64,000 nt of DNA from Craspedostauros australis (lineage: Eukaryota > Bacillariophyta > Bacillariophyceae > Mastogloiales > Achnanthaceae). The stretch covers positions 248,001 through 312,000 of the forward strand of contig JAMXDE010000012.1 in NCBI GenBank assembly GCA_026770025.1, read 5' to 3'. Positions within the stretch are counted from its first letter, which is position 1; the number at the start of each line of letters is the position of its first letter. Below the pieces are notes generated by a model that was not told the origin of the DNA, made no database searches, and was given only the letters and a program-made list of their open reading frames with translations. Positions 1,105 to 55,300 of the stretch are shown here, one piece after another. The position numbers and the translations under genes are program-made.

Positions 1105-2692
1105 ATGCTGTTCGATCCACACAGGTTCGGGCTGCACAAGGTGCTGAAGCACATCCCGCTGGGGGCTATCCTCGATGCCCCGCACAAGAGAGCGGTGAAG
1201 AAGGCCGTCAACATTGCCGACCTCCGACTGCTTGCGAAGGCCAGAGCGCACAAGGTCAGTCATACTCGTACTCAGATCACACCATCAGAAGTCGCTGTGC
1301 TGGTGCTGGTGCGCAACGTTATTGACGACATACGTACATCAATCACGATGTTTGTCGTGTCATTGCGTTCCTTCAGGGAGCATGGCACTCACCCAATGTC
1401 GTTGACGCACTCGTGCTGCAACGCGTCATTTGCGGCTGTGATGCATCCGTCCCTCACACTTTTGTTCTGCAACCCGCCACCGACTGCGAAGTCGAACTCG
1501 TCATGAACGAACGAACGAATGAATGAATGAATGAATACCTTGCCAGATTATGTTCGACTACATTGATGCGGGGGCTGATGATGAGATCACCCTGCGGAGA
1601 AACAAGGATGCCTACTCCGAGCATGAGATGCACTACAAGGTCCTCTCCGGCATCAAGCCCCCGCTCGACTTGAGCACCAAGATCTTCGGCATGGATATTG
1701 ATATGCCATTCTTCGGTTGCCCAACAGCCGGTAACCGCGTCTTCCACTACGAGGGCGAGGCCGCCGTTGCCAAAGCGGCGCAGGAATTTGGGACGTTGTA
1801 CGGACTGTCAACGCACTCAACGACGAGTTTTGAAGATATTACGAAAGTGAACACAGGACCAAAGCTCTTTCAGATGTACATCTGGAAGGACAGGGAACTG
1901 GTCAAGGAGGTCCTCGACCGAGCCAAAGAGAATGGATTCAACGCATTGGCACTCACAGTCGACTTCAGTTGGCATGGAAATCGTGAACGCGAGATCCGGA
2001 ATGACTACATGATCCCGCTCCCGTACACTCTGAAGCAAACCATTCAGGCGCTGGCGAGACCTGCATGGACCTACGATTTCCTTGCGAATGACCCGTGCGT
2101 CTACGCCTGCATCGACGCCGACGTGCCCGCGGAAAAGCTGTCCCAACACATAGACGATCAGGTCACCCCAGAGTACACCTGGTCGGATGCAGAGTGGTTG
2201 CTTGGCGAGTGGAATGGTCCGATCGCGATGAAGGGCGTAATCCGACCCGAGGATGCCAAAAAGGCCATCGAGGCTGGATTTTCCGCCGTCTGGGTTTCCA
2301 ACCACGGCGGCCGCCAGATGGAGACCGCGCCTGCCACAATCGACGTGCTCCCATCCATCCGCGAAGCCGTTGGACCGGACGCAGAAGTGATACTGGATGG
2401 AGGGATACAACGCGGAACAGACATCGCCAAAGCACTCGCGCTTGGAGCCGACGCGGTCGGTGTCGGAAAGCCGTACCTGTATGGACTTTCCGCCGGCGGA
2501 GCGGAAGGCGTTTGCAAGGCGTTCGACATCCTGAAGGTGGAGCTTGACAGAGCCATGGGTCTGCTTGGAACGCCGACGGTCGAGGCGCTGAAGCGAGAGG
2601 GCCCAAACCTCATCAAGAGGCGGCACGGTAGTGCACGAGATTACCCAGACCGCTATGCGTTCGAACGTGGCTACGGCGGCGGCGTCATCTAA
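1105..2692 (+). CDS. FMN-dependent 2-hydroxy-acid oxidase/dehydrogenase, copy 1
   Basis: Member of the glycolate oxidase / lactate dehydrogenase (cytochrome b2-type) TIM-barrel family, which oxidises L-2-hydroxy acids such as glycolate or lactate with FMN. Exon 1 is 1105-1254 (50 codons), then a GTCAGT...AG intron 1255-1546, then exon 2 1547-2692, giving 431 residues. Family landmarks are present: FDYID (Tyr55), FQMY (Tyr161), Lys279 in MKGV, and the signature SNHGGRQ with His303 and Arg306. The Lys-to-His spacing of 24 equals that of spinach glycolate oxidase. DGGIQRGTD supplies the FMN phosphate loop. There is no cytochrome b5 domain. Loop 4, between the Tyr and the Lys, is longer than in plant glycolate oxidase. 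No presequence or PTS1 is seen; the protein ends GYGGGVI. Exact substrate and compartment cannot be read. A near-identical tandem copy follows. Confidence 0.92.
1505..1538 (+). repeat. GAAC/GAAT tandem repeat at the 3' end of the copy-1 intron
   Basis: Three GAAC units followed by GAAT units lie just upstream of the intron acceptor at 1545-1546. The matching intron of copy 2 lacks the repeat, so it arose after the duplication or was lost from copy 2. Confidence 0.8.
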
Positions 2693-3545
2693 CCGCAAGA
2701 TCGTCGGAAATCACAAGCGGTCGAGAAAAGGACTGCGATTGTGTCATCATGGCTCGAGTAGATCGGTCAACTGAGGAACCGATCGTAAATTAGGCAGCCA
2801 TCTTTGACCGAAGAATGTGGATGTCATGTATCACTTCTTCACCCCGAGAGTACTCCACCACGGGCACGATCTCGCGTAGAACTCTCATGTGCGGTAGCAC
2901 TCATTGTGGATGGTTCGTATCTGGTGCGCGGTAATATGTAGAATAGCTCACTTCATGTGGCGAGCTGCACAGCTCGATGTCGGTTCTTCACGACGACAGA
3001 CGATGGTTGTCCGGGCACCATTACACCGAGAAGTGGGATACTCTAGACTATGACACATGTTGCATTTCGAAACACTCTGATTGAATCCCCAAAAAGAGGG
3101 TTCGACCTGACCCAACTCCTGATTTTGGGAACATTTGTGGGGGCAGAATCTTGTGTGTGGTCACTGCGACACGAAATATGTCTTCCGCGAATCAGATGTG
3201 ATCAAAGGTGTCGAATTGTCTCTTTGGTTTGTCTTCTTGGAATAATTCTTCCTTCACTCTTTGTTCTGGATGACCCATCACTCTTTCCACCCAACCACAA
3301 AAGGCCACCTCTGCGCCACACAACATTGTGAAAAAGCAGGGAAACACACGTGCAACTTGATCGGTTCCGTCACGCTGCGACAAGAAATGGCCAACGAGAA
3401 GATCCCACCCCTCACCCTCGCACACATACGAGGAAGACTCCGACTCCGACTCATACTCAGACTCAGACGAAAAACAGTTCATACTGCTGCTGTGCAGACA
3501 ACGATACGCTCTCCTTTTGGAGTCTCATCCGCAAACGGAGACTTG
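2693..3545. other. Spacer between the tandem oxidase genes
   Basis: No coding sequence supported. It should hold the 3' end of copy 1 and the promoter and leader of copy 2. A short run of direct repeats (CTCCGACTC-like, about 3436-3470) lies about 80 bp upstream of the copy-2 start. Confidence 0.5.
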
Positions 3546-5117
3546 ATGATCGATCCACACAAGTTCGGAGTGCACAAGGTGCTGAAGCACATCCCGCTGG
3601 GGGCCGTCTTCGATGCCCCATACAAGAGGGCTGTGAGGAAAGCCGTCAACATTGCCGACCTTCGATCGATCGCGAAGTCCAGGACGCACAAGGTCAGTCA
3701 TATTCTTACTCAGACCACCACAGTGAATGCTGTCGTAGTTCGGAGTGGTGCGAATCATGGTGGTGCTTTTTCAACAGGATTGTATTAGTTTCCCTCTCTC
3801 TGCTCTCTCTCTCTCGAACCAGGTCTTTAGGAAGAGAGTTCTACATCACATCCAACAACAATGCTCTCACCGTTGTGCCACAACCATCTACCGTTTGCGA
3901 AAATACTATGCTCTTCGGCAATCTGCCTCCGACTTTGAATCCGAACTCATCATGAACGAACACCAAAACAGATTATTTTTGACTACATTGATTCTGGCGC
4001 TGACGATGAGATCACCCTGCGGAGAAACAAGGATGCCTACTCCGAGCATGAGATGCACTACAAGGTCCTCTCCGGCATCAAGCCCCCGCTCGACTTGAGC
4101 ACCAAGATCTTCGGCATGGATATCGATATGCCATTCTTCGGTTGCCCAACAGCCGCCAACCGCATCTTTCATCACGAGGGCGAAGTTGGTGTTGCCAAAG
4201 CGGCAGCGAAATTTGGGACGCTGTATGGACTGTCGACGCACGCGACGTCAGGATTTGAAGATGTTTCGAAGGTCCACACAGGACCGAAGATCTTCCAGAT
4301 GTACCTGTGGAACGACAAAGAACTAGTCAGAGATCTCATCGCCAAAGCCCGAGAGAATGGATTCAGCGCATTGGCGCTCACCGTCGACTTCAGCTGGTAT
4401 GGAAACCGCGAACGTGACCTCCGGAATGAGTTTACCATCCCTCTGCAGCACACTCCGGCGCACGTCATGCAGGCGCTGGCGAGACCTGCATGGACCTACG
4501 ATTTCCTTGCGAATGACCCGTGCGTCTACGCCTGCATCAACGCCGACGTGCCCGCGCAAGATCTGTACGAATTCGTGGACAACAAAATCGCTCCAGATTT
4601 CACGTGGGCCGATGCGGAGTGGTTGCTTGGCGAGTGGAATGGTCCGGCAGCGACGAAAGGCGTGGTGCGACCCGAGGATGCCAAAAAGGCCATCGACACT
4701 GGATTTTCCACTGTCTGGGTTTCCAACCACGGCGGCCGCCAGATGGAGACCGCGCCTGCCACAATCGACGTACTTCCGTCCATCCGCGAAGCCGTTGGCC
4801 CGGACGCAGAAGTGATACTGGATGGAGGGATACAACGCGGAACAGACATCGCAAAAGCACTCGCGCTTGGAGCCGACGCGGTCGGTGTCGGAAAGCCGTA
4901 CCTGTATGGACTTGCCGCAGGTGGAGAGGAGGGCGTTTGCAAGGCGTTCGACATCCTGAAGGTGGAGCTTGACAGAGCCATGGGTCTGCTTGGAACGCCG
5001 ACGGTCGAGGCGCTGAAGCGAGAGGGCCCAAACCTCATCAAGAGACGGCACGGTAGTGCACGAGATTACCCAGACCGCTATGCGTTCGAACGTGGCTACG
5101 GCGGCGGCGTCATCTGA
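3546..5117 (+). CDS. FMN-dependent 2-hydroxy-acid oxidase/dehydrogenase, copy 2
   Basis: Tandem paralogue of the gene at 1105 with the same structure. Exon 1 is 3546-3692 (49 codons), the GTCAGT...AG intron is 3693-3971, and exon 2 is 3972-5117, giving 430 residues. It keeps all the catalytic positions: Tyr54 in FDYID, FQMY Tyr160, Lys278 in TKGV, SNHGGRQ His302/Arg305, and DGGIQRGTD. The first part of exon 2 and the last ~440 bp are nearly identical to copy 1. The middle (about 4160-4460 and 4555-4670) carries many replacements, for example HSTTSFEDI against HATSGFEDV. The introns keep only their first ~30 bases alike. Both copies look functional; a difference in substrate preference is possible but not shown. 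Confidence 0.92.
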
Positions 5118-28894: not shown

Positions 28895-31800
28895 CATACT
28901 CGTACGGAACTCCTCCTCGATATGGACTACCATCGTATGAGCTGTTATATTATACTATGGGTGTTGTATCACATTTTGTTTTAATACATAGAATAATATG
29001 TGTAGTATTGAGGGGGATTGTTGGGTTGGCTTGGGTCTGCTCAATGATCTGCCATCACACGAGTAGCCGATTGCCTCACCAAACCCTCACTGGGTCTGTC
29101 ATCGTCAACGGAACATGCAAGATGAAGGCGACAGTCGTCGCGCTTCGGTTGGAAAGGGGCCGTGTGAATTGCGATTGCGATTGGCCTCTCCGCTTGGGCG
29201 TACTCGTACGCATACCTACGAGCGCGAGTACGGTGACAAGCTTGGAGGTGCGAGAGAACCGCACCGTTCCCGCGCTTACTTCTCGATCTTGGAAACGCTG
29301 CGGGTTCTGATGACAACCAACCCGACGTACATGAGCTTATAGATCATGCCGATGCCGATGAGGGTGCCAACATGCTCCCAGACACGGTCAGAGTTCTTGA
29401 CCACGGGGAAGGCGCCGTGCAGGACGGCAAGAGCCTCAGATGCTGTGGTATCCTCCCAGTCGGTGTCCTGGAATGTAACGTACACGGTGCTTGGCTGGAA
29501 GTAGGTGAATGGGAAGATGTAGTAGAACAGCTTCAATGGCCAGTACAGATCCTCCTCGCCGATCAGGAAGCCTCCGAACAGGAAGGAATCGAACCAAAAG
29601 CAGATGAAGGCCAGCATGCCGACGATGACGTTGCTGAAGGCGACAGACAGAACTTCGGCGACGGACTCGAAGACGAACATGGTCGCCATGTAGATGGCAA
29701 CGCATTCGCCGAAAGACTCCCACGGGACGTCCTGGATGACGAAGCTCGGAATGAGCAGGGCAATCATGGTGAACATGAAGAGCACCGGGATGACGAGGAC
29801 AAACTTGGCCAGAATGTAGGACCATGGTTGGATCATTCCGTTCTGGACTTCGCGCTGGATTGAGTGGAACTCGTCGAACAACGCGTAGACAGCCACGACA
29901 GCCACTGTTCTCATGCGATGCGATGCGTCGATCCGAAGGTGCCGAATTGGGAACGGAAACGATGATAAAAAACAGAGGAGGACCGGTGAGATTTGATATT
30001 GCAATTCAAGAGAGCACAAGTGCCATGGAGTAGCAAGGCATCGCACGCACGCTCGAATGGCCAGAAGCAGATAGAGCAGGCCGATGGCAAAAAGCTGAAT
30101 ATCCCAGCAACGTGGAATGGCACATCGACTTACTTTGCGCTGGGACACTGAGGATCCACATCTGGATCCAGAACTTGGAGTACGCGTTGTCCAGTGTGTG
30201 GTTTCTGGCCTCCCAGTACACAAACGCGAAGACCAAGGTCGCGACGGCGATGAGAACGGCGCGACCGAGGTACAAGATGGGGTCGCGGATGATCAACGTC
30301 CGATGGCGATGGAACATGATCGACATCTGACTGAGGATGGGCGCGTTGACGTAGCTGCCCTCCATGTCGATGCTGGATTTGTGCTTCATGGTGGCGTTGC
30401 CGTTGATCCCGGCGATAGCTGGCTTCATCCTGTACCAATGCATCAAGATCTCGTTGACCTGTGTTTCGCTGGTGAAGTCGCTGTTCACCAAGTCGAGGTA
30501 ATGCTCTGCCGGGTTGGTGTTGGCCGGCAGCGGATACCCGATCGAGTCGAAGAATGCCAAGGCATCCTCGGTGTTTCCGGAGAAGGCCTCCATGCCGCGG
30601 GTGAGGATCATGACTTGGTCGAAGGAGTTGTACACCTTGGTGGACGGCTGGTGGATGGTGCAAATGATGATCAGATGCTCGTCCTTGGCAACACGGCCGA
30701 TCTCTTCCATCACGCTGGATGCGGATGCTGCGTCAAGGCCGGATGTTGGCTGTCATGGTCACAAGGAAGTCACATAGAGTATGGTAAAAGTACAGAGAGT
30801 AGGCAAGTGTTGGATACAGGCCAGGAACATGCGTGCACATCAAGAAATAGAGAGAGAGAGAGAGAGAGAGGAAGAAAGGGTGAGCAAACCTGCCAGATGG
30901 GTTCGAGTTTGAATTGATTTGATTCGATTGAGGGTGCACATTGGATCGTGCATGCTCTGGGATTCTTCGACAATCCCGGCAGAGCGTTTGTGCGAACATG
31001 TGCGATGTGCATGGTATGTCATGAACCGTGTGCGTGCGGGCGTGTGCGCTGTGCACTATACAAATATGTGCACTTACCTCATCCAAGAACAATACCTTTG
31101 GCTGCTTCAGCAATGCCACGGCGATGCTCAAGCGGCGCTTTTGCCCACCGGAGAGGTTGGAGCATCTGGTATCAGCGCAGATCACCAATCCCATCTTGTT
31201 CAACACCTCATCGACAGCCGTATCGACCCCATGCGACGTGTCTGCCACATGGTACAGACCAGCGGCGTACTTCAAGGTTTCGCGGGTGGTGAGGTACGGC
31301 CAGTGCATGTCCTGCTGCTTGACAACGAAGCAGTGCTTCTTGAAGGCCTTGCCCGTCATGGTCATGCCGTTCAAGCTGATTTCGCCATTTGCTGTGCCAT
31401 GGTGAGCATCCATGGTCAAGACGGAAATGAGGGTGGTCTTGCCCGCACCGGATGGTCCCAAAATGGCCAAGACATGGCCCTCCTTGACCTTACCGGAGAT
31501 GTTGTGGAGGATCTTCTTCTCGTTGTCGCCCGAACCCACGGTGAAGTTGATGTTGTCGAACACGAGGGCTGATCCGGAGCTTTCGTCAGAGTCGATGGTT
31601 CCCACAGAGGAGGCCTTCGCGCTCTTGTTGTTGATGCCTGATTCCATGCCATCCACGATCTCGGCTTCGATGTTGCCGCTGTCGGTGTGGGTGTTGCTGC
31701 GAGACATGGTGATGAAAGTGGTTTTGTTTTTTCGCTTTGACGTTTGTTGTTCGAAATACTTGTGTGTTTGTGGCTGTGCTTTCTGATTGTCAGGAATCTG

Positions 31801-32650
31801 ATTTGTGAGAGCAATAACCAAGCGGGTGCTCAGCGATCCTCTCTTGGCGTCACAGAGCACACATGTGTGCGAGCGCGGATGTGGATGCCATGGATACTCG
31901 TAGAAGATGAGGACGTGGGACGCGAGGCTATCTTCGACAGCGCCTCGTCTTGTGCAGTTGGACATGTGTTCAACACAGCACTCGTTGCACATCGGCGTGG
32001 GCAGCTCGTATCTTGCGGCTCGTCTGTATGTATGGTGGATATCCAGTAGGCAGATGCTGTGTGGAAGCTGCTTCAACCCCTCTCCTGATCATCCTCGCAT
32101 CAAAGGAATGCCTTGGTATTGCCAAGGAGGGCATTCGTGAATGCATGCGAATGCATGTGTGTGTGGGTGTGTTCATGCCGTCTTGGGACGGGCTCTTTCT
32201 TGGCGTTCCTGTCTCCGTTCAGTGAGTAGGTTCATCACCGCGCCAACTCCTATTCAGCCCCCCAAGGAGGTGGATTGTCGGACAAACCGCGCTTACCGCC
32301 CTGATGGGTTTGGGTGTTGCTGCTCTGGGACAGAAACAGTAAAAGTATCCGCGAGCACCTCTTGGTCTCTTCATGCCTGTGTGACTTGGGCGCGAACGGC
32401 GAGAACAGGACTCCCTCACAAGACTGTTCAGGGAGGCTGCTCGTTCATGGAGGAAAGCCTCGATCCGTTCGTATCATACCACTTCCGGAGGTGACGATTT
32501 TGCAAATGTCACCACGGCGAATCAGCCAGAAACAACAGAAACGGGAGGTGGATAAAATTGTGTCCGGTGGAAGCAGCCAAGAACAAGAAACACCAACAAG
32601 TCGCCGCTCTGAGCGAACGACGCTCTGAGACATCGCGATCGCGCCAGCTC
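28895..32650. repeat. Segmental duplication, copy A
   Basis: Direct repeat of 37275-41145, in the same orientation. It includes the whole ABCG gene with introns, about 380 bp of 3' flank and about 940 bp of 5' flank. The left limit is where CATACTCGTACGG begins to match; the right limit is just after GAGCGAACGACGCTCT. Coding parts differ at few positions (14 of 624 residues by eye), while flanks and introns carry small insertions or deletions. Confidence 0.93.
29276..31707 (-). CDS. ABCG-type half-transporter, copy A
   Basis: Three exons: 31707-31078, 30749-30134 and 29904-29276 (introns 328 and 229 nt, donors GTAAGT), giving 624 residues, the usual length for an ABCG/White half-transporter working as a dimer in a membrane. 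The N-terminal nucleotide-binding domain has Walker A GPSGAGKTT (about 85-93), a Q-loop in VVKQQDM, signature LSGGQKRR, Walker B VLFLDE joined across the intron to PTSGLD, and the H-loop CTIHQPS. The membrane domain follows: TM1 near YLGRAVLIAVATLVFAFVYW, TM2 across the exon 2/3 junction, then about four more ending KLMYVGLVVIRT. The start ATG has context ACCATGT; the frame stays open for over 100 codons upstream, but that part changes like non-coding DNA between the copies. The substrate cannot be deduced. Confidence 0.92.
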
Positions 32651-32714
32651 ATACTGCTGCGCTCAGCAATAATTTTCACCGCGATGATGCTGTTTGTTGC
32701 CGAAAGTTGAAGCT
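31708..32714. other. 5' flank of ABCG copy A
   Basis: Promoter and leader space for the minus-strand ABCG gene. Most of it (to about 32650) is duplicated in copy B. The last ~64 bp before the inverted-repeat element at 32715 has no counterpart there. No independent gene. Confidence 0.55.
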
Positions 32715-32791
32715 AGTTGAAGTTCAACTAAGAACAGACTACTTTCCACTTAGTGTGTCCAGTGTCGCACCATGACATTGTTTTTGGCGCG
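32715..32791 (+). repeat. Left terminal inverted repeat
   Basis: Outer 33 bp match the right repeat with a single difference (A/C at position 22). The next ~44 bp match at about 70% with one gap. Confidence 0.85.
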
Positions 32792-33571
32792 TCAACTATG
32801 ACTCAAAACCCTCCGTTTACAAATACAGGGAATTACGTTTCCCACAATATCCCACTCTGACTCATCAACCATTGGGGACTCAAATCTCAATCGATTCACT
32901 GAATTCAATGTACTCTGGGAACAATGACCCGGGTCAGTGAGTCGACCAACCATTGGTAAAGTAGAGTGGCACTTTTTCTCCGATTACAACAGAACTAAGC
33001 TTACCAACCTACGCATTATAGTGTCCATAGCAACAGAAAATTACCTATAATCTCAAGGTCCATATTTTAAGTTTTATGGACAATCCAATATTTGGAGGTC
33101 ATATGGGTCAAACGTAGCGTTCCACGATGTAGTTATGCCGAAAGTTCTTTGGTGTTCCGAGTAAATAACGATAGGTGTCCATTCACGTTGGTGTCTCCAG
33201 CTTTTTCCTTCCTCCTCGATCTTTTCGAACACGTTAAACAACGTTAGCCGCTCCGGAATCGATTGACATTTCCTGCTTGTGGACATCACACACATCATCG
33301 CCACATGCACACGACCACATCGTCGCCACGCAGACACAAAACCCCAGTCACATTTTGGATTCATTCCAAACGTTCCTCCGCCGATGCAATGCTCATTGTA
33401 TCTGTTTTGCTGCGGCTGTAGTGTGTGTAGTGAGAATACTAGTTACATTGGCAGTTGTGGTCGCCGCTGCTGCATCCAACACCTCCTCCACTCACTTTCA
33501 TTCAGCGTTCTCCAGTGCAATTCATCGAACAATCAATCAATCAATCAAGGAACTCTGTTCCCATCAGCACC

Positions 33572-34102
33572 ATGTCCTCCACCGCTGCCAAAGCCTCAAT
33601 CAAGAGTGAAAACCTGTCTCCTTGTAAGAAGCCTCGTTCCTGTGTTGCCCCTCTCGATTCTCCGTTTGATTCGGATGGCAACTTGGCACCTACTCATGAG
33701 CAGCTGTTGCCTGACAAGCTGTCTGCTGAATTGCGGAAGCCCACCAACATCACTCACGCGATCGAGGTGAAGCCAATGCTTCCAGTGGACAGCAACCTTG
33801 TTCCAGCTTTGGCGCATGTCGATGCCGCCAACCTGCGCGTTGACGTGCGCCTGTCCAGTGTGGCGGGTGTCATTTTTGATACACCAACGGTCACACTGCG
33901 TACGGTGGGACAAGGTGTCGGTGCTATCACAGTGGTGGACGTCAGCGTGAACATGCCACCTCCCATTGAGTCTCCTGCCAAACCAACTAACCGTGCAAGC
34001 ACTTCACAACACGCCAATGCTGTAGCTGGAGGCTCTTCCGCTCATGTTGATGTTGACAGCGATGACGACTACGTGGATGGCCGTGATCGCAGGAGGAAGT
34101 GA
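33572..34102 (+). CDS. Unknown element-encoded protein, ORF1 (possibly first exon)
   Basis: A frame of 176 residues opens with MSSTAAKASIKSENLSPCKK and ends DSDDDYVDGRDRRRK. It has a basic Lys/Pro start with CKKPRS, a central part with alternating hydrophobic residues (VDVRLSSVAGVIFDTPTVTL), a Ser/Thr/Pro linker and an acidic-then-basic tail. No known domain is recognised. The next frame (34203-35205) lies close downstream in another frame. A GTGAAC donor at 34099 and an AG at 34201-34202 would join them in phase through a 104-nt intron, giving a 509-residue protein. This is only a possibility; other introns in the window are longer. Confidence 0.45.
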   Translation: MSSTAAKASIKSENLSPCKKPRSCVAPLDSPFDSDGNLAPTHEQLLPDKLSAELRKPTNITHAIEVKPMLPVDSNLVPALAHVDAANLRVDVRLSSVAGVIFDTPTVTLRTVGQGVGAITVVDVSVNMPPPIESPAKPTNRASTSQHANAVAGGSSAHVDVDSDDDYVDGRDRRRK

Positions 34103-34202
34103 ACAGGTCGCAACAGAATCATGAAGAAAATGGTGAGAGGATGGCGTCGCGATGCGTTGGCCGGCGTCGCAGGGTTGGTTAAGTCTGTTCTATCTCCAAA
34201 AG

Positions 34203-35205
34203 TGTTCGACTCTATGCCAAAGACGGGCTTCGTACTCGGTGGAAAACACGAGAGAGCAACACCAAACGGCTGTGGGTACCAATTGCTTCTGCGCTCTGGG
34301 ATGTGTTGCTTCCAACAGAAGCGACACCGACTTGCCAGATGCATGAGGTGGTGCAATTTGTCCGAGCTGGGCAACCACTGCCACCAATGAGGCTTGCACC
34401 TAATCTGTACCGCATATGTGTTGGAGGGAGCAAGCTCATGGACCTCTGCGCGAGAATGGCTCTTGGGCAGTCTGCATCTCCAACAACATGCACAGACATT
34501 CTCACTGGATACACCAATGGATTGCCGGAGGAACAACGCGGGCGTGTACATGGAAATCGATTAACCATCACTAAAAGCCAACATAACACATTGCATCATT
34601 ACCACGACATGTTGAGCGACGGGGAAACCATTCCCCCCAAAGTTCTTCAATACCGTGTGACTGTGTGTGCTTTGTCTGGTGTGGTGTCGTTTCTCTGCAC
34701 TACGACCACGTACAAGGTTGGCTTGTGCCACGAAGTGGAGTGGGAAGGAGTCGTATTCGAGAGCGTTCCAGTCTTCGATCGTGGAGGAAACATTGTCGTG
34801 GCGCTATTCGACATGTACAAGACTACCACTACCAACCCAGTGGGCAAGCCAGCATTTAAGGATATGACTAAGCTACTAACACGACGTGGAAAAGTGAACA
34901 CAGGGCTGTCGTCCTTCGAGAGCCACTTCTTGCTGGCGATGCTAACTCTCAAACGCACGATCTCGCGCCTTGTCACACTTTTGAAGGCTAAGTATCCTGC
35001 AACAAATGGTGTCGAGGACAAGAATGACGTGATTTTCCAGCAACTGCGCACAGCCGAGTCTCTGTTGTACGCATTGGAACTTCTTGTTGTCTTTGTCAAA
35101 TGGGAATTCACTGCCTCTCACATGCAGATGGAGTGTGACGACCCACTGCACTCAGCTCAATTCGCGCTCACGCCCAATGAAGAGAAGAAGACAACAACGA
35201 AATGA
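34203..35205 (+). CDS. Unknown element-encoded protein, ORF2 (possibly second exon)
   Basis: The frame is open from 34183 to the stop at 35205; the first ATG in it is at 34339 (288 residues), which suggests the true start lies upstream by splicing. Visible stretches include KRLWVPIASALWDVLLP, CARMALGQSASPTTCTDIL, a compact hydrophobic part YKVGLCHEVEWEGVVFESVP...GGNIVVALFDMYK, a helical region FLLAMLTLKRTISRLVTLLKA, and TAESLLYALELLVVFVKWEF near the end. It lacks an evident zinc finger, helix-turn-helix or spaced D-D-E triad that I can defend. It could be a divergent transposase, an accessory protein, or a captured host gene. Confidence 0.5.
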
Positions 35206-37178
35206 TCCCAACCAACCCGAACATGTACTTGTTGGAAATCCAGGGTACCCCAGTCTCTAGTAGTAGTATCTGGTTACCTATTCATGTTATTGCATTGTTG
35301 GAACTGTGAGTACAACATCTTCATCACTTTCAATTCCATTTGCCAAAGCATACATATTCCACTGTAGCACACAGTCTTGCCCTTGCTCATGCAGTGCTGT
35401 CCTCCTGCTTCATCATGTCATGCAGCATGTACTCCATGTACATCTCATCTTGCAGTATTGGTGCATCTCATCATACATCTCAGATATTCCATCTCCTGAC
35501 CTCTACCAATAGTTTTGTTAGCATAAACATTGCCAAGTCGTAGGCGTCACACAGCTCGGTCCATTCGATCGGATCAGGGTCTCCCATTCGTCACAGTAGC
35601 ACCCTGGATGGGAGCTCATTCAGCTCCTCATCGTCACACATCTCCGATCATCTCCGATTGTTTCTCCCATTACTTCGCCGATCACTTCACCGGCTTCCTG
35701 GAAGTTCGTCATCACTGGTTCGTTCACAGGCCGTCTCACACTTTGTGACATTGACCTTCCTCCAGTACTCTCTTTTCATTGGTTGCGACATGGGGGCCGT
35801 AGTCAAGTGTATCGTGATGTTGGTCACGATTCCAACATCCCTGCCCCCTGCGACATACACGTGTGCTTGGTATTCCTGCATTGAGGTCACGGACACCATA
35901 GTCCGGTTCGCATTCGGCACGTGGCGTTCTCCACAAGACGCGCGCAGCTCACATTTTCTGTCACAAAGATCCACAGATGTGAGTTGCGGTAATATATAAT
36001 TTTATGACATTCGACTCCTTACTCTTGGGAGGTGCGGCAACTTGGTGTTTCACAACACCCGATTCCGGACAGATGCGATGGACCTCAACATGTCATGAAA
36101 GGGAAGCAGGGACGAACAAAAGAATGCAAACAAGATACCGGAGACCAGCCCTGTGCAGCACTCCGCCACAATGCAACTGCATGCCATATAGAACCACATC
36201 GCTGTCGTCTGATAGCAAGGCAAATACTATTAACAATGAAATCTCCGAAAATACAAACGATCATATCTTGCCTATGGTCCCCCAAAACTTTGGAAACCCC
36301 ACCAACGCGACGGCAACACGGAAACCTCACATTCGGAACCCTCGCAACACTATCCGTCTGTGCGTGCGTACGCCTCTACCCCGCAGATGCCATTCGAGGT
36401 TTAAGTATCCATATCTTTGTAACTACCCCGATCTGGAAGCCCAGAATGACACCATAGTTAGTTTCTCATTTTACTCTATAGGGTTGGATGGTTTATAAGC
36501 TAAAACGTGGTTTATCGTCTATAAGGCCCTCAATGGCCACTTTTGGGTTTAAGTTAGGATTCGTGTACTTTCGTAGACGAACCGGAGTAGACCTTGTGGA
36601 CTGCCGGCTTCAAGTGAGGCCGATTAACGCAGTTCACTGGGCTTGAGTGTTGTATGACTGTCAAGGCTTGTAACGATGAATAGAGTAGTAGTGTTTGTAC
36701 TGATCCGAACTTGTTATTATGAGTTAGTAGCTGTAGGCAGGATGAAGAAACGATAATCATGTATTGGCACGGCTCTGCACTGACCCGCATGGTTCAGTGC
36801 TGAGAAGAGGCTGTACTTTCCTCCGTGTCCTCCTCCCCTGAATCGCTGGCGATGTCATACAGTAGGTCTCGTGGCTTCAGCAGATGTTGAAGGGATGGGA
36901 GCTGCGCAGCCGGAGACGGCAGATTGAACTTGCATCAGGATTCCATTGCTGAGGTTGAAGCAGCTTAGATTGCCCACAATGTAGCTGGAATGAACGGCAA
37001 ACGTCGTGGCAGCAAGAGGGAATCCAGGTGAGGTCCATCTGACAGGATCTGAGGAGCTTATAGTTCCCACATGCATTGGTTGGCTTAGACGGACCGTAGC
37101 ATGGGAATCGGGAATGATTCGTGACTGAAAAGAGGGGAGGGCAAGGAAGGTCTGTCCATTGTCGGGTTTGGACAATTG
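35206..37178. other. Non-coding right part of the TIR element
   Basis: About 2 kb without a supported gene. Short frames such as 36004-36498 (plus) and 36855-37223 (minus, running into the inverted repeat) have no recognisable content. Repeated ATCTCCGATC/CATCTC phrases occur at 35630-35700. Confidence 0.45.
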
Positions 37179-37256
37179 CGCGCCAAAAGCAATTTCAAGC
37201 AACAACACGGGATACCCTAACAAGGAAAGTAGTCGGTTCTTAGTTGAACTTCAACT
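37179..37256 (-). repeat. Right terminal inverted repeat
   Basis: Inverted partner of 32715-32791. Beyond it, about 20 bp separate the element from the start of duplication copy B. Confidence 0.85.
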
Positions 37257-37657
37257 GTTTATCTGCATCGGGGTCATATACTCGTACGGCACTCCTCCTC
37301 GATATGGAATACCATCGTATGAGCTGTTATATTATACTATGGGTGTTGTATCACATTTTGTTTTAATACATAGAATAATATGTGTAGTATTGAGGGGGAT
37401 TGTTGGGTTGGCTTGGGTCTGCTCAATGATCTGCCATCACACGAGTAGCCGATTGCCTCACCAAACCCTCACTGGGTCTGTCATCGTCAACGGAACATGC
37501 AAGATGAAGGCGACAGTCGTCGCGCTTCGGTTGGAAAGGGGCCGTGTGAATTGCGATTGCGATTGGCCTCTCCGCTTGGGCGTACTCGTACGCATACCTA
37601 CGAGCGCGAGTACGGTGACAAGCTTGGAGGTGCGAGAGAACCGCACCGTTCCCGCGC

Positions 37658-40112
37658 TTACTTCTCGATCTTGGAAACGCTGCGGGTTCTGATGACAACC
37701 AACCCGACGTACATGAGCTTATAGATCATGCCGATGCCGATGAGGGTGCCAACATGCTCCCAGACACGGTCAGAGTTCTTGACCACGGGGAAGGCGCCGT
37801 GCAGGACGGCAAGAGCCTCAGATGCTGTGGTATCCTCCCAGTCGGTGTCCTGGAATGTAACGTACACGGTGCTTGGCTGGAAGTAGGTGAATGGGAAGAT
37901 GTAGTAGAACAGCTTCAATGGCCAGTACAGATCCTCCTCGCCGATCAGGAAGCCTCCGAACAGGAAGGAATCGAACCAAAAGCAGATGAAGGCCAGCATG
38001 CCGACGATGACGTTGCTGAAGGCGACAGACAGAACTTCGGCGACAGACTCGAAGACGAACATGCTCGCGATGTAGATGGCAACGCATTCGCCGAAAGACT
38101 CCCACGGGACGTCCTGGATGACGAAGCTTGGAATGAGCAGGGCAATCATGGTGAACGTGAAGAGCACCGGGATGACGAGGACAAACTTGGCCAGAATGTA
38201 GGACCATGGTTGGATCATTCCGTTCTGGACTTCGCGCTGGATTGAGTGGAACTCGTCGAACAACGCGTAGACAGCCACGACAGCCACTGTTCTCATGCGA
38301 TGCGATGCGATGCGTCGATTCGAAGGTGCCGAATTGGGAACGGAAACGATGATCCAAGAAAAAAAAAACAGAGCAAAAATACGGAGGAGGACCGGTGAGA
38401 ATTGATACTACAATTCAAGAGAGCACAAGTGCCATGGAGTAGCAAGGCATCGCACGCACGCTCGAATGGCCAGAAACAGATAGAGCAGGCCGATGGCAAA
38501 AAGCTGAATATCCCAGCAACGTGGAATGGCACATCGACTTACTTTGCGCTGGGACGCAGATGAACCAAATCTGAATCCAGAACTTGGAGTACGCGTTGTC
38601 CAATGTGTGGTTTCTGGCCTCCCAGTACACAAACGCGAAGACCAAGGTCGCGACGGCGATGAGAACGGCGCGACCGAGGTACAAGATGGGGTCGCGGATG
38701 ATCAACGTCCAATGGCGATGGAACATGATCGACATCTGACTGAGGATGGGCGCGTTGACGTAGCTGCCCTCCATGTCGATGCTGGATTCGTGCTTCATGG
38801 TGGCGTTGCCGTTGATCCCGGCGATAGCTGGCTTCATCCTGTACCAATGCATCAAGATCTCGTTGACCTGTGCTTCGCTGGTGAAGTCGCTGTTCACCAA
38901 GTCGAGGTAATGCTCTGCCGGGTTGGTGTTGGCCGGCAGCGGATACCCGATCGAGTCGAAGAATGCCAAGGCATCCTCGGTGTCTCCGGAGAAGGCCTCC
39001 ATGCCGCGGGTGAGGATCATGACTTGATCGAAGGAGTTGTACACCTTGGTGGACGGCTGGTGGATGGTGCAAATGATGATCAGATGCTCGTCCTTGGCAA
39101 CACGGCCGATCTCTTCCATCACGCTGGATGCGGATGCTGCGTCAAGGCCGGATGTTGGCTGTCATGGTCACAAGGAAGCCACATAGAGTATGGTAAAAGT
39201 ACAGAGAGTAGGCAAGTGTTGGATACAGACCAGGAACATGCGTGCACATCAAGAAATAGAGAGAGAGAGAGAGAGGAAGAAAGGGTGAGCAAACCTGCCA
39301 GATGGGTTCGAGTTTGAATTGATTTGATTCGATTGAGGGTGCACATTGGATCGTGCATGCTCTGGGATTCTTCGACAATCCCGACAGAGCGTTTGTGCGA
39401 ACATGTGCGATGTGCATGGTATGTCATGAACCGTGTGCGTGCGGGCGTGTGCGCTGTGCACTATACAAATATGTGCACTTACCTCATCCAAGAACAATAC
39501 CTTTGGCTGCTTCAGCAATGCCACGGCGATGCTCAAGCGGCGCTTTTGCCCACCGGAGAGGCTGGAGCATCTGGTATCAGCGCAGATCACCAATCCCATC
39601 TTGTTCAACACCTCATCGACAGCCGTATCGACCCCATGCGACGTGTCTGCCACATGGTACAGACCAGCGGCGTACTTCAAGGTTTCGCGAGTGGTGAGGT
39701 ACGGCCAGTGCATGTCCTGCTGCTTGACAACGAAGCAGTGCTTCTTGAAGGCCTTGCCCGTCATGGTCATGCCGTTCAAGCTGATTTCGCCATTTGCTGT
39801 GCCATGGTGAGCATCCATGGTCAAGACGGAAATGAGGGTGGTCTTGCCCGCACCGGATGGTCCCAAAATGGCCAAGACATGGCCCTCCTTGACCTTACCG
39901 GAGATGTTGTGGAGGATCTTCTTCTCGTTGTCGCCCGAACCCACGGTGAAGTTGATGTTGTCGAACACGAGGGCTGATCCGGAGCTTTCGTCAGAGTCGA
40001 TTGTTCCCACAGAGGAGGTCTTCGCGCTCTTGTTGTTGATGCCTGATTCCATGCCATCCACGATCTCGGCTTCGATGTTGCCGTTGTCGGTGTGGGTATT
40101 GCTGCGAGACAT
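37658..40112 (-). CDS. ABCG-type half-transporter, copy B
   Basis: Same three-exon structure as copy A: 40112-39483, 39158-38543 and 38286-37658, 624 residues, all splice sites conserved. Walker A GPSGAGKTT, signature LSGGQKRR, Walker B VLFLDE/PTSGLD and the H-loop are intact, so it looks functional. By eye it differs from copy A at 14 residues: three in exon 1 (for example CSSLSGG for CSNLSGG), eight in exon 2 and three in exon 3. Four of the exon 2 changes fall within the last eight or so codons (IWFIC for MWILS), the TM2 region, so variation is not spread evenly. The in-frame open leader upstream is present here too but is not counted as coding. Confidence 0.92.
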
Positions 40113-41428
40113 GGTGATGAAAGTGGTTTTGTTTTTTCGCTTTGACGTTTGTTGTTCGAAACACTTGTGTGTTTGTGGCTGTGCTTTCTGATTGTCAGGA
40201 ATCTGATTTGTGAGAGCAATAACCAAGCGGGTGCTCAGCGATCCTCTCTTGGCGTCACAGAGGACACATGTGTGCGAGTGCGGGTGTGGGTGCCATGGAT
40301 ACTCGTAGAAGATGAGAACGTGGGACGCGAGGCTATCTTCGACAGCGCCCCGTCTTGTGCAGTTGGACATGTGTTCAAAACAGCACTCGTTGTACATCGG
40401 CGTGGGCAGCTCGTATCTCGTGGCTCGTCCGTATGTATGGTGGACATTCAGCAGGCAGATGCTGCGCAGAAGTTGCTTCAACCCCTCTCCTGATCGTCCT
40501 CGCACGCTCAAGTGATCAAAGGAATGTCTTGATATTGCCAAGAGGGCATTCGTGAACGCATGCGAATGCATGTGTGTGTGGGCGTGTTCATGCTGTCTCA
40601 GGACGGGCTCTTTCTCGGCGTTCCTGTCTCCGTTCAGTGAATAGGCTCATCGCCGCGCCAACTCCTATTCAGCCCTTCAGGAGGTGGATTGTCGTACAAA
40701 CCGCGCTTACTGCCCTGATGGGTTTTGGTGTTGCTGCTCTGGGACAGAAACAGGAGAAGTATCCGCGAGCACAAGATACTGCTTCTGCGCGTGTGTGTAT
40801 ACACACACGCTCTTCTCGTGTGGACCTGTTGGCCTCTCCATATATGTGTGACATGGGTGCGAACGGCAAGAACAAGACTCCCTCACAAGACTGTTCAGGG
40901 AGGCTGCTCGTTCATGCAGGAAAGCCTCGATCCGTTCGTATCATAATCACTTCTGAAGGTGACGACTTTGCGAATGCCACCACAGCGAAGCAGCCAGAAA
41001 CAACAGAAACGTGAGGTGGATAAAATCGGGTGCGCGGCCGGATTCTTTCTGGTGACATCTCTGCCGGTGGAAGCAGCCGGGAATACGAACCACCAAGATG
41101 TCACCGTTCTGAGCGAACGACGCTCTCAGACATCGCAATCGCACCGGTTCACACGCAAGGGCCACCACACATACGAGGAGCTCGCCCCGAAGCTCAAAGA
41201 CAGACCAACCCACAGACATCCAGTATCGATGAACGAACAAACAGACAGACAGCCAACTCAGAGTTCCAAATGCCCAGCCCAGTCTCCAGCATTTTGCTGA
41301 AGGGATATTCGTCCCAGAGAGAGAGAGAGAGTACAGCACCCTATGCTTGTTCCTGTTCCTTTTTCTTATGCTTGCAACAGTATACCATCATGGTTGTGCT
41401 TAAGCTTGTGTTGTTCAGGGGTGTCGGC
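40113..41428. other. 5' flank of ABCG copy B and 3' flank of RPN2
   Basis: Duplicated up to about 41145. The remainder (41146-41428) is unique and includes a GA run at 41318-41331. No gene seen. Confidence 0.5.
40789..40810. repeat. 22-bp perfect palindrome
   Basis: GTGTGTGTATACACACAC with GC/GC on either side reads identically on both strands. It lies inside an insertion present only in duplication copy B. Confidence 0.85.
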
Positions 41429-52371: not shown

Positions 52372-55300
52372 TGTGAAGTGATTTGATCTGAACACTGCGA
52401 CCTCCTATGCTCCTGCTTGGATGTCAGTATGACAAGTAGACTATTGTATTGTTGCAAAGAACCTGGAACGACCTGGTCGGTATCAAGTGCTTGGGTGTGT
52501 TGGCGGCATTGGTTGGGCAGGCAGTGTTGTGGTTTGTCGTGAAGTTGTTGTTGCCACCATGCCGATCTCTGTTTTGGTTGTGTGATAAATGGAATCGTTC
52601 GACTAAGAACAAATTGAAACACGTTAGCACATTCATTGCACGACTGGATGACTACCGTACTGAAGTACAGACCAACATGAACCCAAGTTCTAACAGTTGA
52701 ATTGTCTATGGTCGAAGAGGTCGACATACAATTGGAGGCAGCGGCAGTATTTTAATAATACACCTTCTTCGTCCCATACCGATGTTGACAGACGTAAAAT
52801 ATATCGATTAATTGTCTCCCCAATTGACTCCAGCGACTGAAACACACTTTGAACCGTGATAGTATCACGCTAGAGAGCCGAATGAAGAGACGGAGGCGTC
52901 CAGTTCGGAGTGTCTGCTGCTGTCAAGGACACTGCCGTAAGTGTTGATGATGTCCTCCGGCTTGCTCGGAGTGCAGATACAGGGAGCAGACAGGGCAAGT
53001 CGACGAACACATGCTCATCATTTGCAAGGAGATCGTCAACAGAAGCCCGGAGCACAAGCCTGGCATGGTACTGTATGGCATGGTCGATAGTCGTGCGCCG
53101 TGAGATGAATCGAGGTCACACCATTGTTTGGTTTGGGGAGTACCCGCTTTTGTGGCAGCGATGAAGCACAGAGCACAGAGGGCAGAGCACAGAGGGCAGA
53201 GAAACAGGGTGGAGGTCTACCTCGCGAAGATCGATTGCTACATCCTCGTATCGTATTCTGGCGCCGCACCACACTACCGCGTTGCGAGTATGGGCAAGAT
53301 GCGAGTATAGTACGATGCGAGTACGTTGCTCGCTCTGGCCACATTTGCGCACATGTGGTGGACTTAATCTCACTGAAGGCCCATGTTTGCATGTTTCGAG
53401 GACATTGCCGACCATTCAGAAAGTCCAACTCGTTGGGCTTTGGTTGGATGGAGAAGGGCAGAACAAGCGTTTTTGTGATTGCCCAGGTCATTTGGAGGAC
53501 GAGAGCGCAACATTGCAGTTGATGTCGCGAGCGCTGTGTCAGAAAATGGAATTCTGGCCGAAGCCCACAGGCCGACTGCGTGTATTTGATGTGGAGCGAG
53601 TGCAGAGAAGAATACTCTGCTCTCTATTCCGCGCAATTACTCTGTTCCTGTTTCGCTCGCCACCGCCAACTGAAAGCCTATCGTTTCAAAAGAAAACATG
53701 AACAATTGTACTAGAGCATGCCACGCTCCTTGTGCTACACGCTACCACTAGGAAGTATGGGTGGCCTCTTCGCAGTCTTGCAGGCGCTGATGCGAGTGCA
53801 ATACTCGCACCGTGCTGAGCCGGTTGTGTTGGTCGTTGATCTTGGTGCTGTTCATCGGCCTGCAACGGATACGTCGAGGCGAGGCGAGACGATGCGAGGC
53901 AAGATGTTTGATTTCCATTCGCTGGAACTGTAACCTCCCATCCATTCTGTGGATTGAATGAATCCTCTCGCGCACAAGAAACTCTAACATGGCAGATGGA
54001 CCTTTGCGGTTGTTCCTTCTCTTCTATTCTATAATACTTGCGTTAGGACGTGCCCCCGTGTGTGGCTAATCCTTGCAACGCACGACCAGAGACCCGCACA
54101 AGGATGAATAGCTTGCCCCCAGTCGTCCACCAGCCTGCATTGTTGTTGTTCAAATTCTTGCGAGAAAGTGGCGGCAGCGCATGGGTGAGGCTGGCGACAC
54201 TCCCAACGAAGTCCCGAAAGGGAGAAGCGCCGCGAACTACCACCCTCGTTCCTTCGTCCGCCTCTCGACATCTCGCGAATGAGGCACGTTCTGCTATCAA
54301 TCCGGATCGGGAGGAATTGCGTGCGTAACAGTGAGGGACACGAAGCCAAAGACCAAACCATGGGTGAGCAAGGAGCGCATGCGCAGCCGGCAAACATGAC
54401 CGCCTCCCATAGATGATGCCGCTTTGTCCCTTGCGTGCATGACCCTGTTCACTGGGCTATGTGGCAGAATGTACCGGCTCGTACTCTACCATGCTATACT
54501 CTGGTGCTCCGTGCTCGGCTTCGAACGAGGATGGTACACGTACCAGGAATGAAATTCCGTCATGCTCTCTACTACCAACAGAGGGCGCAATCGCGGCACA
54601 TGCTGAGAGAGAGAGAGAGAAGCACGTTCGGGGCAAGCGTAGCATGGGACCTGACATGACACACGCAGAATCTGCCTATCTCACAGGCTCTTGGAAGAAA
54701 ATGGCGCCTGCTTTTTGGGTGGAGCACAGCAACGCCTAATTTGTATCTCAATATCTGTCAATTGAAACCTATTTCCTCTCATGTGTCATTTGCTGCCTTT
54801 TGTCAAAGCATGAAACGCACTGCCATCGATAGAAAGCGCCGGTTTGGGTCTGGACCACAGAGGCACAGTGAGATGTCTTGGCATCGCTGTTGTGATCGTC
54901 ATCGTCGTTGTCGTCGTTGTTGGTGTTGTGCAGATCGTACGAGCAACGCACACGAGGACGGAGCTGCAACAGCGGTTCAGTTTTGGCACGACTCGGGGAT
55001 GATGCCATCCAACGTCGATGTGTCGAATGTCACCATCCTCGTACAATTCTAGTACAGGTAATACGTAGCAACTATTATTGTTCACCTCTTTCAGAGTGTC
55101 ATTTGTTGCCAAAGTGGAGATTCCTTGATACCGATACGACAAAAAGGAGTTCACAACCAAGACACACAAGATGTCCGCCAAAGCAATTAATCACCAAGGG
55201 TGGCTGTTCGGCAAGATCGAAACTACGACTAAGACTTAGCCGCACAAAGATGAGGCGGTCGCCAACCAAGAACGATTGTAACACGGACGGCACAATCCAG

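Follow-up and report, generated by a model that had tools for sequence, protein, structure and literature searches.

Is the stretch between positions 32715 and 37256 of a 64-kb window from the diatom Craspedostauros australis one DNA transposon? The window, i.e. the whole stretch of DNA that was analysed, corresponds to C10:248001-312000 in a genome of 74.8 Mb and 90 contigs (C, contig), and its part 32655-37277 to C10:280655-285277. In the initial annotation, the 4.5 kb in question had been described as a single element with matched terminal inverted repeats (TIRs), an AT-rich interior and two plus-strand frames, and an unclassified DNA transposon had been proposed. We find that the stretch is made up of five or more pieces that derive from different repeats and is not one mobile unit. 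The proposal thus fails for the stretch as a whole, but it holds for the frames, which represent the disrupted first half of a gene that belongs to a multi-copy transposon designated F. We consider it very probable that the cluster, which lies between two tandem ABC-transporter genes, comprises a truncated long terminal repeat (LTR-B), a truncated F, a solo LTR-C, a piece of a repeat J with a solo LTR-A inserted in it, that it arose by nested insertion and LTR recombination, and that F is a putative DDE cut-and-paste transposon.

The inverted match at 32715 and 37256

Re-alignment of the outer ends reproduced the reported match: 32715-32747 and the inverted 37224-37256 are identical at 32 of 33 positions (97%), and the similarity weakens inward to about 78 bp, with 82% over these 78 bp. 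A scan of the whole window for inverted 33-mers returned no other pair with 32 or more matches. Chance is indeed not the origin of the match, but its source is LTR homology. The composition (48.9% GC in 32655-37277 vs 53.8% in the window) and the two plus-strand frames (33443-34102 and 34183-35205) were likewise as described. What did not hold was the unity of the stretch. With all 4542 bp as query, the genome returned 65 matches (best 40 of 965 candidates scored), and none of these other than the window itself spans 32715-37256. The matches fall into the blocks 201-2514, 2513-3361 and 3835-4542 of the query, plus 1-81 against the reversed right end, and separate searches identified query 1-211 and positions 36072-36551 each as a repeat of its own. 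No target duplication surrounds the whole stretch with its outer ends AGTTGAAG/CTTCAACT, as AAGCT is found on the left and GTTTA on the right; the latter duplicates the left flank of LTR-A. A single DNA transposon with AGTTGAAGTT TIRs, for which the unique inverted match would speak, is therefore extremely improbable: all pieces are also found apart from one another, the right-hand one with a GTTTA duplication of its own and with empty sites, and the two ends have separate histories.

The shared AGTTGAAGTT is the start of Copia-type LTRs. At the right end, LTR-A (705 bp in the window) belongs to elements that are present in full on C6, C17 and C30 with 9143-9146 bp, LTR pairs identical at 99.9%, 99.2% and 100%, and 5-bp duplications in all three (TGCTA, CGTTC and CACAG). 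A solo LTR-A on C51 is flanked by CGCGC, and the one in the window by GTTTA at 36547-36551 and 37257-37261. Each full element has a 2424-codon open frame, encoded on the opposite strand with respect to the LTR as read in the window. Among the 2380 codons of the C30 frame that were scanned for domains, RVT_2 was found at 1890-2128 (3e-38; 132.2 bits vs a cut-off of 31.6), and gag_pre-integrs, which precedes the reverse transcriptase, at 919-988 (4.6e-10, passing its cut-off); Pol_BBD (0.0019) and SH3_retrovirus (0.057) fell short of theirs. Read in the coding direction, the 5' LTR terminates with CCTAACT; it is followed by GGTAGCTGCGAGTGG, by eye a candidate primer site to which no tRNA was matched, and GAGAGGGAG, a candidate polypurine tract, precedes the 3' LTR. 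The three other copies of J that were read show GGGTTTATCTGC without LTR-A and therefore represent empty sites in related copies. LTR-A was also considered as a DNA transposon of the KolobokP-like kind, which has long direct repeats (excerpt of PMC9587614), but this reading was rejected, because the element encodes RVT_2.

At the left end, the repeat LTR-B (AGTTGAAG...CCAACT, about 762 bp) is complete (1-762) at 17 of 30 loci, including two pairs with common flanks that may be duplicates. Four of the 17 have perfect 5-bp duplications (CACGC, GCATA, GACTT and AAGTT) and one a match at 4 of 5 positions, two are followed by GGTAGCTGC, as the LTR-A element has it in its interior, and neither applies to the remaining ten. 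LTR-B is collinear with the reversed LTR-A at positions 1-83 or 1-54 and at 478-547, with 76-85% identity. From its LTR structure and this collinearity we conclude that it is the LTR of a family related to LTR-A. The window copy breaks at GGGAAC, followed by AA and then TGACCC, where most other copies run on as GGAACTATATG; intact copies read GGGAACTATATG at the site at which F is nested in the window, and the remainder of LTR-B was not found in the window at E 1e-6. Another LTR-B copy (L033, around position 1717) is broken after about 217 bp, close to the F break in the window copy, by sequence that begins with TGTTGGAAATCCAGGG, the start of LTR-C.

As judged from these comparisons, the inverted match is one between the homologous ends of LTR-B (plus strand) and LTR-A (minus strand) and not between the TIRs of one element; the false TIRs result from a left end that is a truncated LTR of a family related to LTR-A, in opposite orientation. 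The initial annotation had named the lack of any second copy of the termini as evidence against a mobile element; such copies exist, but they identify the termini as LTR ends. Opposed LTRs of two related families can thus mimic DNA-transposon TIRs and mislead anyone who reads a single locus.

Copies, target sites and protein of F

The window copy contains residues 1-228 of the F protein at 33572-34255 and residues 232-556 at 34255-35229. In a profile search with the two frames, as suggested in the initial annotation, neither matched a Pfam family at E up to 1. A full copy of F at C5:2491370-2496006 measures 4637 bp and has TIRs of about 160 bp, which agree at 150 of 161 positions, TA included. 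The termini read TA-NGA(C/G)CC...GG(G/C)TCN-TA, with a variable base next to TA. All seven copies that were read at both ends (on C17, C12, C37, C7, C34, C5 and C31) have TA on both sides, and TA likewise follows five of five additional 3' ends; the ends of the C37 copy lie 12 kb apart, so this copy must be interrupted. Three of three other copies of the repeat around the C5 element read GCACTGAAGTATGGCATC with a single TA, whereas the F-bearing copy has TA on each side. This repeat has at least 21 other listed copies at 94-98% identity (L057 907-3001, C5:2496006-2498100) and may itself be a recently active element. F also lies inside LTR-A, at TTCTTA followed by GGACCC, in two near-identical regions on C48 and at C5:4964. 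Loci from the end of contig 48 (L015, C48:440000-449595) and the start of contig 5 (L021, C5:1-9900) are 99.97% identical over 9.6 kb; these contigs possibly overlap or represent haplotypes, and therefore some copy counts may be doubled. To judge by its copies and empty sites, F is a genuine DNA transposon present in many copies, and its behaviour is that of a TA-targeting cut-and-paste element.

The F gene is one open frame of 1281 codons, with 1230 amino acids (aa) from the first methionine. When 1106 of the 1281 codons were searched against the genome at the protein level, 43 rows were obtained (best 42 of 534 candidates scored, which applies to all counts here). Nineteen rows with 91-100% identity represent the F family, 15 of them near full length and 11 of these 15 without a stop in the matched stretch. 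A sister subfamily with 59-61% identity accounts for 22 rows, i.e. eight without a stop, 12 with one TAG and two with two stops, and the remaining two rows are one copy with 53-67% identity. The sister copy L020, which like F starts with TA followed by TGAGCCTGATCAGTGAGTCGACCAA, has a TAG upstream of the ATG and a TGA within the gene; we guess that the single TAG of the 12 other sister copies also lies upstream of the ATG.

Over 379 C-terminal codons, the ratio of nonsynonymous to synonymous changes (dN/dS) is 0.07-0.13 for the ten pairs of five copies. The N-terminal values are 0.16-0.30 for other copies and 0.28-0.32 for the broken window copy, so that the latter is scarcely distinct. In a block of 198 codons, F is identical to the sister subfamily at 155 residues and to a third lineage at 130, with synonymous sites saturated. 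D702, D786 and E823 are invariant in all seven sequences, spaced as D-83-D-36-E, and their context looks like that of an RNase H fold; a CNRC motif upstream of this putative DDE triad is common to the three lineages. The putative transposase with these three residues would bind the TIRs, excise the element and insert it at a TA. A 20-residue stretch encoded elsewhere in the window (52581-52640, minus strand) is 55% identical to the CNRC region (E 0.006, filter off), by chance or as a remnant.

Proposed assembly of the cluster between the ABC-transporter genes

F ends at 35229 and abuts LTR-C. A related direct pair of LTR-C on C51 measures 834 bp, with 99.8% identity between the two. The excerpt of PMC2806351 explains LTR elements without target duplication in Phaeodactylum tricornutum by recombination between family members, and we infer that recombination between two LTR-C copies may likewise have produced the join of F, LTR-C and J. 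According to the proposed history, LTR-B would have inserted first and F would have followed at a TA within it. An LTR-C element would then have inserted into F, and recombination of this LTR-C with an LTR-C beside J would have removed the right half of F, the remainder of LTR-B and the left part of J. Finally, LTR-A would have inserted into J and lost its interior by LTR-LTR recombination.

Several observations weigh against the reading as a whole. The base pair left of the window copy of F is AA and not TA, so a substitution must be assumed, and the DDE triad was chosen by eye, with no profile or fold behind it. A perfect 5-bp duplication flanks only 4 of the 17 full-length LTR-B copies. LTR-A ends in AGTT...AACT instead of TG...CA, which is common, but not universal, in Ty1/Copia, and no integrase core was found at E up to 0.1 in the scanned part of the C30 frame. 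The LTR-C recombination is read solely from the missing duplications, and an assembly join or a simple deletion would leave the same picture. Such a join or deletion, which fits an LTR-C without duplication equally well, is nevertheless improbable as the source of the order of the pieces, since the join coincides exactly with the two ends of a complete LTR-C (35230 and 36071), as LTR recombination predicts. We retain nested insertion with LTR recombination as the proposed history. The features are compiled in Table 1.

Table 1 Pieces of the mobile-element cluster and the flanking tandem units in the window.
Feature	Position	Strand	Evidence or remark
Tandem unit 1, ABC-transporter gene, left flank	28896-32654	-	ABC_tran 5.1e-31 in 30733-32085, minus strand
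LTR-B fragment with the first part of a ~762-bp LTR, truncated by F; left "TIR"	32715-32924	+	at least 39 other places (best 40 of 86 candidates scored)
Truncated F copy, 5' TIR and first half of the gene	32925-35229	+	201-2514 of the 4542-bp query matches more than 20 places at 86-91%
Broken F frames	33572-35205	+	in-frame stop 34100-34102, frame change near 34255, stop 35203-35205
Solo LTR-C, TGTTGG...GGACA	35230-36071		no target duplication (GTACT left, GATGC right); C4, C41 and C36 copies, 89-91%
Repeat J, first piece, left part missing	36072-36551		five other full-length matches, 88-89%
Solo LTR-A of a ~9.1-kb Ty1/Copia-type element; right "TIR"	36552-37256	-	GTTTA/GTTTA flanks; the 3 other J copies read are empty at this site
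Repeat J, second piece, ending on the right in ...GGGTCA before TA	37257-37276		runs on in the J copies on C1 and C17
Tandem unit 2, ABC-transporter gene, right flank	37278-41154	-	ABC2_membrane_3 1.9e-10 and ABC2_membrane 3.1e-09 in 37661-38407, minus strand

The two tandem units are 93.9% identical over 3883 aligned bases, and the cluster is placed exactly at their junction, which illustrates in a modest way the load of mobile elements between duplicated genes. The end of J (GGGTCA followed by TA) is the same kind of end as that of F, with a different sequence in the rest of J. We also considered J as a long-TIR element and rejected this; a pattern of its 30 end bases gave five matches with up to three mismatches, all fitting the one end of J. 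A dispersed repeat of about 53 bp (32650-32704) lies directly left of LTR-B and is 83-85% identical to five places on C22, C5, C3 and C30. Further tandem duplication in the window involves 1527-2690/3952-5115 and 1106-1280/3544-3718, with 88.6% and 85.7% identity, respectively. Rfam returned no matches at gathering scores and ARAGORN no tRNAs in the window.

Searches for relatives of F and comparison with known systems

Pfam, NCBIfam, PHROGs and PDB contained no convincing match to the F protein. The weak scores from Pfam, PHROGs and NCBIfam, i.e. CD99L2 (1.3 and 0.1), Tox-MPTase4 (0.066), phrog_8508 of unknown function (0.024), PRK14052 of the VopS family (0.069) and PRK15174 (0.17), were taken as chance, and the window frames of F together with other open reading frames (ORFs) of the stretch gave COX15-CtaA (0.14) and RepSA (0.34) only. 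One PDB search with F was without a match and another returned one coat-protein chain at E 0.59. Pattern-based scans gave 0, 1 and 146 pattern matches in viral contigs and 91 in prokaryote genomes, and in none was a relative of F confirmed; tblastn against phages found no relative of the protein, and literature searches, among the titles and abstract openings listed, nothing recognisable as F. DDE_3 had no match in the whole genome, in a search whose control was positive in 3 of 14 genomes. A multi-copy TA-targeting transposon is uncovered whose large protein is under selection and has no convincing match in the libraries searched.

What might F be? A length of 1230 aa is very large for the IS630-Tc1-mariner group, which counts against membership of F. 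DD36E and TA are given as features of this group in the excerpt of PMC8533490. The TA duplication in seven of seven copies and three of three empty sites, the one ORF and the D-83-D-36-E spacing, with its triad picked by eye and invariant in seven sequences, would suit a strongly diverged member. No Pfam family of the group matched at E up to 10, with CD99L2 and Tox-MPTase4 only by chance, and DDE_3 had no match in the genome as stated above, so we regard this assignment as rather doubtful. That F belongs to some other catalogued superfamily or clade outside the coverage of Pfam appears about evenly balanced. Similar motifs are present in some uncharacterised eukaryotic proteins from elsewhere. 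Moreover, TA-duplicating lineages beyond IS630-Tc1-mariner are known, such as PHISTA and ESTA (PMC12730594, excerpt). The same excerpt gives C(2)C and H(3-4)H between the second D and the E for the CMCT clade, which includes ESTA; F lacks the C(2)C between D786 and E823, unlike the ESTA clade, and no PHIS-type Pfam profile was reported for it. A superfamily new to science with a sister of about 60% identity, marked by TIRs of about 160 bp, GA(C/G)CC ends one variable base from TA, a 1230-aa DDE-type protein and many intact-looking copies, is unlikely, although conceivable on these features. If F does represent one, the known range of DDE transposases is widened; if not, F adds a well-delimited member with empty sites.

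Among known systems, LTR-A resembles Ty1/Copia in that it has direct LTRs with 5-bp duplications and a single long polyprotein frame, in which gag_pre-integrs precedes RVT_2, and in the purine run and the candidate primer site next to its LTRs. It differs in its AGTT...AACT ends and in an integrase core that was not detected at E 0.1; LTR-B is tied to Ty1/Copia by the homology of its LTR to LTR-A. The LTR recombinants of P. tricornutum, as far as the excerpt of PMC2806351 describes them, share the missing target duplication and the truncated elements at joins, but are intact elements with paired LTRs, whereas LTR-C is solo. With IS630-Tc1-mariner, F shares TIRs, TA duplication, one ORF and the putative D-D-36-E, and it differs in the missing profile match, its 1230 aa, TIRs of about 160 bp and the variable base between TA and GA(C/G)CC. 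From PHISTA and ESTA, compared by description only (PMC12730594, excerpt), F differs in that it is without the ESTA-type C(2)C between the second D and the E, and in that similarity to PHIS transposases was not found with Pfam; with both it shares the TA duplication, TIRs and a putative DDE-type protein.

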